Of a stretch of DNA of 64,000 nucleotides, positions 41,221-62,874 are shown in pieces. This DNA is from Phytoactinopolyspora halophila (GTDB lineage: Bacteria > Actinomycetota > Actinomycetes > Jiangellales > Jiangellaceae). Location: NCBI RefSeq assembly GCF_003287285.1, contig NZ_QMIG01000020.1, forward strand, positions 1 to 64,000, given 5' to 3'. Below the pieces are notes generated by a model that worked only from the letters and a program-made list of their open reading frames with translations, did not search any database and was not told the origin of the DNA. A program made the translations under genes and the position numbers. Positions within the stretch are counted from its first letter, which is position 1. Every line of letters begins with the position of its first letter.

Positions 41221-42549
41221 TCAGAGACCGAGTATGGTGCGGGCGGTCATGAAGTAGATGATCAGACCCGTGGCATCGACCAGCGTGGCGACCATGGGGG
41301 CGGACACGACGGCGGGGTCGATGCCGAGCTTCTTGGCGAACAACGGCATGCATCCGCCAACGATCGCTGCCCAGGTACACACCGCCAGCAGTGATATCGC
41401 AATGACCAGCGCGAGCTGGAGATCGGCGAACACCAACCCGATCACGATGCCGACGAGACCGAGCGCCAAGCCGAGGAGCGCGCCCACGCGCGCTTCCGTC
41501 CACAGCACTCGCGGAACGTCGCGGACCCGCACCTCGGCCAGGGCTAGAGCACGCACCACCGAGGTCGCCGACTGGGCACCAGTATTACCCCCACTTCCGG
41601 TGATCATCGGGATGAAGAGCGCGAGCGCCGTGACCTCGGCGAGGTTCTCCTCGAAATGGTCCAGCACATTGATCGTCAAGATGGCGGCGACGAACAACAA
41701 CATCAGCCACGGCACCCGGCGGGTGGCGAGCATCCAGATCCCGGCCAGGAGATACGAGCCGGCCAGCGGTTCGGAGCCGGACTGCCGGTAGGCATCCTCG
41801 GTTTCTGCTTCCTCCAAGACCTCCACCGCGTCGTCGATAGTCAACAGCCCGAGCAAGCGGTCCTCACTGTCGACGATCGGCAGGTCGAGCAGGTTCGCGT
41901 CCCGCATCAAACGGGCAGCGTCCTCCGCCTCGTCGGTGGCGCGCGCCGAGACGAAGTCCATCGTCGCGATGTCGTTGACCCTCCTATCGGTGGGCGCGGT
42001 GACGAGATCGCGCAGGGATGTGATGCCCACCAACCGCCGCCCATCGTCCACGACCGGCAACGTATAGACCGTCTCCGCGTTGGCGCCCTTGGTCCGCACC
42101 ACGTTCAGCGCCTCCGCAGCGGTCAGCGACCGGTGCAGCGCGACCACCTCCGGGGTCATGGCGCGCCCGGCCGAGCCTTCCGGGTAGCCGAGCAGGGCGG
42201 CCGTCATCTGGCGCTCATGTGGGCTCAGCCCGGCAAGCACGCGGCGGGCGACCTTGGCCGGAGTCTCACCGATCAGCCGCGCACGGTCGTCCGGGTCCAT
42301 GCCTTCGACCAGCTCGCGGAAGGCACGGTCGCGCAGGCCGGCGAGGATTTCCTGCTGATCCGATGGGTCCAGCTCCTCGAAGACCGCCAGCGCCTTCCCC
42401 TTGTCCAGCAAGCGAAAGACCAGCGCCATCCCTGCGGCATCGGCATGCAACAGCTCGTTGGCGATTTCGTACGGCTGCTTCGAGTTCAGCCAGTCCTTCA
42501 GGTAGGGGAGGTCTTGTTCCTTGAGCATGTCAAGCAGATCCGCCGTCAT
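41221..42549 (-). CDS. mgtE: Magnesium transporter MgtE
   Basis: 442 residues: superhelical N domain (about 10-130, FEELDPSDQQEILAGL), paired CBS domains (about 135-255) that gate by cytosolic Mg2+, and five membrane helices (about 275-442) with the pore motif PMITGSGGNTGAQSAT. GGAGG lies six bases before the ATG. That ATG overlaps the stop of a 36-codon leader ORF (ATGA), and a long foldable leader precedes it. Converges on the desaturase with a gap of about 36 bases. Confidence 0.95.
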   Translation of the reverse strand: MTADLLDMLKEQDLPYLKDWLNSKQPYEIANELLHADAAGMALVFRLLDKGKALAVFEELDPSDQQEILAGLRDRAFRELVEGMDPDDRARLIGETPAKVARRVLAGLSPHERQMTAALLGYPEGSAGRAMTPEVVALHRSLTAAEALNVVRTKGANAETVYTLPVVDDGRRLVGITSLRDLVTAPTDRRVNDIATMDFVSARATDEAEDAARLMRDANLLDLPIVDSEDRLLGLLTIDDAVEVLEEAETEDAYRQSGSEPLAGSYLLAGIWMLATRRVPWLMLLFVAAILTINVLDHFEENLAEVTALALFIPMITGSGGNTGAQSATSVVRALALAEVRVRDVPRVLWTEARVGALLGLALGLVGIVIGLVFADLQLALVIAISLLAVCTWAAIVGGCMPLFAKKLGIDPAVVSAPMVATLVDATGLIIYFMTARTILGL

Positions 42550-42656
42550 GCCTTACCTCCCAGGATCACTCGCCCGTCTAGGCACCTGCTCGGATCGCGA
42601 TTCGGTCGAGGTTGACCTGGACAGAAAGTCCGGTAGCGCAGCGCTTCACGGCACAT
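42546..42656 (-). CDS. 36-codon Pro/Arg-rich leader ORF coupled to mgtE
   Basis: The ATG at 42656 is preceded by AAGGAG at seven bases, a near-ideal ribosome site. The peptide begins MCREALRYR, has the segment PGQPRPNRDP (four Pro in ten residues, positions 13-22), and ends LGGKA. Its TGA overlaps the mgtE start codon (ATGA). I know of no homologue. Proline-rich leader peptides sense low Mg2+ in front of enterobacterial mgtA; a similar role here is inference from position and composition. It could also be a plain coupling ORF or chance. Confidence 0.6.
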   Translation of the reverse strand: MCREALRYRTFCPGQPRPNRDPSRCLDGRVILGGKA

Positions 42657-42851
42657 GGGTGTACTCCTTTGATCAGCACGGCCGCACACCCAGGCATGTT
42701 CACAATGCGCTGCACGCCCGCCTTGCGGAGGCAGAATTATGAAATGGCACGCCGGAGTGCGCGTCGGGTGAGGTCGGCATGAATAGCAATCCAGCTACTA
42801 TGGCTGGGCTCGGCGTCGGCTACAGATGATCGACGTCGCATTGCCCTCACC
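42656..42851 (-). promoter_or_regulatory. Candidate structured leader RNA of the mgtE transcript
   Basis: Read on the minus strand, TGGGTGT (42692-42686) pairs with ACACCCA (42662-42656) so that the ribosome site of the leader ORF is in the loop and its A of ATG is in the stem. Further up, GGTGAGG (42851-42845) pairs with CCTCACC (42773-42767) around an inner hairpin CCAGC/GCTGG (42807-42803/42795-42791). I could not fit it to the known M-box. The stretch 42852-43066 shows no gene. Confidence 0.4.
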
Positions 42852-43066
42852 TCCCCAGCACGAATCACGGCGTGGTACTCACTGTGACAAGAATTTGACG
42901 ACGTTCGGCAGCACGTCCCGTACTACCTACAGCGGCATGTCAACGCGACACCTGCACACGAGCACATGTCACTAATCTCGCGTGGCTGACAAACCTCCAA
43001 GATTCTAGTCCGCAAACGCAGCGCATCCAAGCCAACCCAGAAAACCCGACGACGGGGGATGATGGG

Positions 43067-62696: not shown

Positions 62697-62874
62697 CTCA
62701 CTCCTCAGCAAGCGGCGGCATGCTCGACGGCAGCCGCGGGTGGCCATCCGACCGCCGGGGCCCAGGCGTTCGACCCCGAAGTCTCCTGCTGGTGTGCCGC
62801 TCCCCGGTGGTTATCCACCCAGCGCCAGTCGCGACGCGGCCTAGCGTAACAGGTACCGTGCGGCTTGCGGAGAC

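Follow-up and report, generated by a model that had tools for sequence, protein, structure and literature searches.

A candidate family of Mg2+-sensing leader peptides encoded upstream of mgtE and corA in actinobacteria

It is already known that enterobacteria sense Mg2+ through the ribosome by means of acid-proline leader peptides. In the case of MgtL, which precedes mgtA in Escherichia coli and Salmonella, the EPDP motif leads to destabilisation and drop-off of the ribosome at low Mg2+, an event that alters folding of the leader and turns mgtA on (PMC11282234). In the corA leader of the same two organisms, stem A sequesters the ribosome site of the uORF encoding CorL, the translation of which opposes corA expression via Rho (PMC11552253). 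MgtQ is encoded between mgtC and mgtB in Salmonella; its acidic codons 2 and 5 lower translation of the uORF, free the mgtB ribosome site and raise mgtB translation (PMC8092293). Finally, the M-box (RF00380) provides Mg2+-dependent leader control of mgtE and related genes. Some M-box leaders also contain uORFs, amongst which the mycobacterial M-box uORF2 is conserved and has been described as specific to mycobacteria (PMC12810186). At the level of titles and abstracts, the literature describes no actinobacterial mgtE or corA leader peptide other than these mycobacterial M-box uORFs. The literature searched also did not pair mgtE with the phrase "intrinsic ribosome destabilization" or return the peptide string of the locus reported here. 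The leader-peptide family characterised below is apparently undescribed.

The actinobacterial uORFs resemble mgtL in that a short ORF lies in the long leader of a Mg2+ transporter gene, encodes an acid-proline pair early in the peptide and is overlapped by stems. They differ from it in serving MgtE and CorA rather than a P-type ATPase, in belonging to a different phylum, and in carrying a single E-P (a weaker motif than EPDP) together with a conserved P-x-S that includes a rare AGT codon. No sequence relation to MgtL was evident, and the acid-proline likeness is a functional analogy only. As with CorL, a uORF is found before corA with a stem over its ribosome site, and the CCT CCC : GGGAGG pairing observed in actinobacteria resembles stem A of the enteric mgtA and corA leaders (PMC11552253). 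The published description of CorL gives it one proline, within an N terminus that is conserved; an EPPS core is common to the actinobacterial corA peptides and the mgtE leaders. The early acidic residues recall MgtQ, although the latter is intergenic, acts on mgtB translation and has been described in Salmonella. Unlike M-box leaders, the leader studied here showed no match to the M-box. Overall, the actinobacterial leaders resemble those of MgtL, CorL and MgtQ in that each contains a short ORF, equipped with a ribosome site of its own, ahead of a Mg2+ transporter gene. They also share an acidic/proline motif that lies within the first ~30 residues and is conserved as peptide, with Q or H/R in place of E as exceptions.

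The mgtE locus of the window and its close relatives

The window is a 64,000-nucleotide stretch of the Phytoactinopolyspora halophila genome (contig NZ_QMIG01000020.1). The preliminary description of this DNA had taken the gene in question to be mgtE, an assignment borne out by its MgtE_N, CBS and MgtE domains. In profile searches this gene was the sole PF01769 match in the genome, which gave no CorA match. The same description had proposed that a 36-codon ORF ending on the mgtE start (here uORF2) acts as a proline-rich leader peptide gene. It had pointed to four prolines within PGQPRPNRDP, a well-placed AAGGAG ribosome site, the ATGA overlap with mgtE, a hairpin holding the uORF2 ribosome site, and a GGTGAGG/CCTCACC stem further upstream. 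All of these elements were confirmed in the sequence (Table 1). Inside the upstream stem-loop sits another ORF, uORF1, which had gone unnoticed, and the stem itself pairs the uORF1 ribosome site with uORF1 codons 23-25. The uORF1 peptide begins with MRRRSSVADAEPSHSSW and carries the acid-proline sequence DAEPSHS at residues 9-15. In predicted folds, the CCTCACC of uORF1 pairs with GGTGAGG when folded locally and with the mgtE Shine-Dalgarno sequence when the full-length leader is folded.

Table 1. Features of the mgtE locus and its leader (window coordinates)
Feature	Coordinates	Strand	Basis
mgtE, Mg2+ transporter, 442 aa	41221..42549	-	Pfam MgtE_N, CBS x2, MgtE
mgtE Shine-Dalgarno GGGAGG	42556..42561	-	sequence
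uORF2, ORF of the preliminary description, MCREALRYRTFCPGQPRPNRDPSRCLDGRVILGGKA, 36 codons, stop overlaps mgtE start (ATGA)	42546..42656	-	sequence
uORF2 Shine-Dalgarno AAGGAG, seven bases before ATG	42664..42669	-	sequence
Hairpin GGGTGTGC/GTACACCC, uORF2 Shine-Dalgarno in loop	42657..42691	-	predicted fold; same arms in L069 and L071
uORF1, conserved leader peptide gene, MRRRSSVADAEPSHSSWIAIHADLTRRALRRAIS followed by stop, 34 codons, 292 nt 5' of mgtE	42737..42841	-	translation
CCTCACC within uORF1 codons 23-25, able to pair with GGTGAGG (42851-42845) of the uORF1 ribosome site	42767..42773	-	predicted folds
uORF1 codons 11-15, GAG CCC AGC CAT AGT = E-P-S-H-S, presumed destabilising/stalling core	42797..42811	-	comparison
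Conserved core of leader, Shine-Dalgarno plus uORF1 codons 1-16	42791..42854	-	BLASTN to relatives; degenerate pattern exact at 42797-42854
uORF1 Shine-Dalgarno GGGGAGG	42850..42856	-	sequence; GAGGTG kept at nearly all homologous uORFs

The closest mgtE genes were those of Phytoactinopolyspora and same-family genomes, with 79-85% identity. Comparison of the window leader with the leaders of four of them (L003, L068, L069 and L071) by BLASTN gave a single significant block each time, at approximately 42854-42791, with 75-84% identity and E values of 6e-16 to 7e-9. This block was the only alignable part of the leader; it covers the start of uORF1, and uORF2 lies outside it. The uORF1 orthologues in four Phytoactinopolyspora-like genomes read MRRRSSMTDSEPSHS, MRSRSSVTDAEPCHS, MRHRSSMTDAEPCHS and MRSRSPLADADPDHS. 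Amongst these relatives the E/D and P of the core are kept with synonymous changes (CCC, CCG, CCA) and CAT AGT is invariant. A degenerate pattern of the uORF1 block was found in 5 of 22 same-family genomes, as a single copy in each and always 5' of mgtE. The close relative L070 had neither uORF1 nor a coupled ORF by the criteria used.

M-box matches (RF00380) were obtained in three of these relatives, L003 (988-1162), L069 (3231-3404, reverse strand) and L071 (899-1072), where they lie 5' of the uORF1 homologue and separate from it. This arrangement points to Mg2+ control of the same mgtE gene, and the M-box and the uORF may be two Mg2+ sensors, possibly acting in series. The M-box covariance model did not match the window leader at an E value as high as 10, and searches of this leader for known RNA families gave none at gathering score or at E values up to 10. 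A search of the window leader for sigma-70-like promoters also found none, a result that carries no information in this organism.

Two of five other close relatives (L069 and L071, Phytoactinopolyspora) also have an ORF that is coupled to mgtE and whose ribosome site sits in the same hairpin; three of the five closest relatives lack the coupled ORF. In L069 and L071 the pairing of this hairpin is kept through changes (GGGTGTGC/GCGCACCC). The coupled position is shared by these two relatives; the uORF2 peptide and its prolines are unconserved even there. Whether close relatives keep the Pro codons had been named as a check and, since they do not, uORF2 fails as a proline sensor. Its role, if any, is most likely translational coupling to mgtE in a small group of relatives. 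When the leader was shuffled, an ORF of at least 30 codons led by a Shine-Dalgarno sequence arose in 7.4% of cases; in 0.9% such an ORF also ran into the start of the gene. The two window hairpins were not more stable than their shuffled counterparts (z = -1.03 and -0.81), nor did the fold of the whole window leader stand out (z = -0.39). The original observation is thus real and partly ordinary. The idea of a leader peptide controlling an actinobacterial mgtE was right in principle, as the conserved acid-proline peptides bear out, and the ORF chosen was wrong, uORF1 being the relevant one.

A leader-peptide family upstream of mgtE and corA

An early EP or DP in a uORF led by a Shine-Dalgarno sequence was found at 43 of 64 sampled mgtE loci, the corresponding values in controls being 0.07 on average in Markov shuffles and 0 on the reverse strand. 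About one third of the sampled mgtE loci had no such uORF. PF03448 was also tried as an mgtE probe; it matched nearly every genome, apparently picking up other MgtE_N proteins too, and was dropped. Upstream of mgtE the family type is GAGGTG-[A/G]TG-M(R)(S/G)EPPS. The commonest form is MRSEPPS[H/R/P], which occurs in Streptomyces and Nocardia, while Nocardiopsis has MSSEPPS and Micromonospora MTSEPSS. Outside the class and within the same phylum, two loci encode MSEPSSS and MSEPGSS, and their MgtE proteins are only 37-41% identical. EPPS occupies residues 4-7 elsewhere, compared with residues 9-15 for DAEPSHS in the window, and the E-P-S-H-S of uORF1 corresponds to the EPPS, EPSS and EPGSS of the other families. 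The uORFs range from 8 to 47 residues in length, of which only 7-15 are conserved.

The genomic distribution of the peptide was examined independently of gene context, using a pattern made of the ribosome site followed by MR[S/G]E-P-[P/S]-S, in 394 genomes. This search gave 19 matches, each in a different genome, and the reversed pattern matched nowhere; 6 of the matches lay before mgtE and 13 before corA. The corA matches came from 12 genomes of one same-family genus, inferred to be Jiangella, and from one genome of another family. Two more patterns were built from corA leaders, so that the first search is the cleanest evidence. Specifically, a pattern of the MSQPPST form gave 5 matches in 248 genomes, one per genome and all before corA, and an MDRS(H/R)PCSTT pattern from Streptomyces gave 4 matches in 238 genomes, again one per genome, with coordinates just before corA. 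Both reversed patterns gave none. Taken together, the 28 matches of the three patterns are all followed, about 160-450 nt downstream, by a Mg2+ transporter gene (mgtE in 6 cases and corA in 22).

The corA leaders of further families read MSSEPPS, MTRSEPPS, MRGEPPS, MSGEPPS, MRSEPPG and MSQPPST. The acidic residue is not universal, as illustrated by MSQPPST, found before corA in one family, and by the Streptomyces form MDRS(H/R)PCSTT. In each of the 12 Jiangella-like genomes the leader precedes corA and this mgtE is missing, while the genome of the window has mgtE and no corA; the leader therefore appears to follow the transporter in use. Two same-family genomes that possess both genes (G001 and G002) carry an SEPPS leader at corA and not at mgtE. 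Six Streptomyces leaders of corA paralogues (L209, L211 and L224-L227) contain an ORF reading MDRS(H/R)PCSTTRSSRR about 410-450 nt before corA, with a 40-nt stretch in its start region that is identical in four Streptomyces genomes.

Conservation of the peptide and of the RNA

Variation in the R-S-E-P-P-S block of 51 distinct uORFs is concentrated in third codon positions, with column entropies of 1.51, 0.28 and 5.26 at codon positions 1, 2 and 3, respectively. The third-position entropy was reached by 11 of 18,564 choices of six columns (p=0.0006, a value that ignores kinship). The uORF peptide is therefore probably under selection, as judged from this comparison. For the five-species block of the window alone, the third-position excess gave p=0.06.

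The codons used within the core are nonetheless unusual. Pro5 is CCT in 41 of 59 uORFs, although CCT makes up 1.5% of the Pro codons in mgtE genes, and 57 of 58 Ser codons at Ser7 of the EPPS group are AGT, compared with 5% of Ser codons in mgtE genes. AGT also occurs in all five same-family mgtE uORFs (42799-42797 in the window). This codon choice implies that part of the conservation concerns the RNA. When the leaders of Streptomyces and Jiangella are folded in silico, CCT CCC forms base pairs with GGGAGG of the ribosome site. Such pairing does not account for AGT, for which slow decoding after the proline core or a separate RNA pairing is possible. The 3' half of the uORF also supplies the 5' arm of a second hairpin. 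A consensus fold of all mgtE leaders pooled gave 5 pairs only, the alignment being too diverse, and a homogeneous subset gave a clearer result. In the Streptomyces/Nocardia leaders, 93.7% of cells in this hairpin are paired, and covariation exceeded that of every one of 500 shuffles and, by a wide margin, that of slid versions. Leaders of the corA group retain the pairing, with covariation no higher than in shuffles.

Proposed mechanism and alternative explanations

By sequence, uORF1 is an ORF with a strong ribosome site and a conserved, N-terminally placed [E/D/Q]-P-x-(x)-S core, located almost exclusively before Mg2+ transporter genes. On this comparative evidence we consider it likely that uORF1 is a cis-acting leader peptide gene through which mgtE responds to Mg2+, and that it belongs to a family placed before mgtE and corA in many actinobacteria. 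Mg2+ dependence, stalling and the direction of control we infer by analogy. Ribosome drop-off or pausing is proposed because the anatomy matches that of the enteric leaders, namely an early acid-proline pair, a ribosome site covered by a stem, and a hairpin that would be opened by a ribosome reaching the stop codon. At low cytosolic Mg2+, the ribosome would pause or drop off at E-P-x-S and leave the 3' half of the uORF uncovered, allowing the second hairpin to form; this would be the ON state, with production of the transporter. With ample Mg2+, the uORF would be translated through and the second hairpin blocked. Expression would then fall either by premature, probably Rho-dependent, termination or by closure of the transporter ribosome site. 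Since one family has Q in place of E, strict acidic destabilisation may be an incomplete account, and polyproline-type pausing at the uORF core is possible.

More specifically for the window, uORF2, whose ribosome site lies in a hairpin loop and whose stop codon overlaps the mgtE start, would probably relay the decision by translational coupling, and the CCTCACC of uORF1 could pair with its own ribosome site or with that of mgtE. These window-specific steps are put forward conditionally, their comparative support being the uORF2 hairpin of L069 and L071.

Alternatively, control could be exerted by the RNA structure, that is by the ribosome site paired with CCUCC together with the second hairpin, the peptide sequence being irrelevant. 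The strongly conserved CCT and AGT codons, the pairing of EPP codons with the ribosome site in Streptomyces and Jiangella, and the identical 40-nt block in four Streptomyces genomes would all be expected in that case. We nevertheless find it rather unlikely, given the excess of third-position variation (p=0.0006). Moreover, Nocardia keeps MRSEPPS with CCC CCG AGT although the pairing to GGAGG is lost, the relatives of the window keep E-P-x-H-S without CCTCC, and the start codon alternates between ATG and GTG while the frame is kept. That uORF2 itself is a proline-based Mg2+ sensor is very improbable: the density of its prolines (four within ten codons), its well-formed ribosome site and its overlap with mgtE, and the similar coupled ORFs of L069 and L071, have to be set against a peptide and prolines lost even in those two genomes and an ORF missing from three of the five closest relatives.

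If the peptide is what matters, it could still stall at its proline motifs and report on EF-P/ABC-F activity, antibiotics, or amino acid or tRNA supply instead of Mg2+. Retention of PP where E has become Q (MSQPPST) and the almost invariant rare AGT after the prolines fit such a signal. It is however unlikely to be the one sensed, since every one of the 28 whole-genome matches precedes a gene for a Mg2+ transporter, from one or other of two unrelated families, and M-box riboswitches stand 5' of the same uORF in relatives. The conservation of the N-terminal sequence across families might also suggest a small trans-acting protein, acting for example on the transporter protein. This possibility we regard as scarcely credible in view of the short conserved part, the wide range of lengths and the occurrence of the same core with two unrelated transporters, always in cis.

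The preferred reading of uORF1 as a Mg2+-responsive leader peptide gene suggests that actinobacteria sense Mg2+ through ribosomes that stall or drop off while making a short peptide unrelated to the enteric peptides. We give roughly even chances to a broader proposal, according to which actinobacteria would have arrived, independently of enterics, at a Mg2+ sensor that is based on the ribosome, extends across the phylum and has [E/Q]-P-x-S(AGU) as its core. Such a sensor would serve two unrelated transporter families and stay with whichever one a lineage uses. Control in two steps would arise where it is combined with an M-box, as in some relatives, or with a second, coupling ORF, as in the window. 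If true, a functionally parallel peptide unrelated in sequence before mgtE and corA would make this a general solution reached more than once. The natural variants EPPS, EPSS, EPGSS, EPxHS, QPPS and HPCS would constitute a test set for Mg2+ sensitivity of the nascent chain, and M-box-free Mg2+ control in actinobacteria would be directly testable.

A conserved Cys-rich ORF of 43 residues, MADTPACGNQAGELCPACFSAVLRPEGAHGRCDGCGWVGKCCE, was observed 5' of mgtE in L076 and L078, which are members of the phylum outside the class. Elsewhere in the window, a ZMP/ZTP riboswitch (RF01750) at 62753-62842 on the reverse strand is followed by an ORF that resembles purH by its start sequence.
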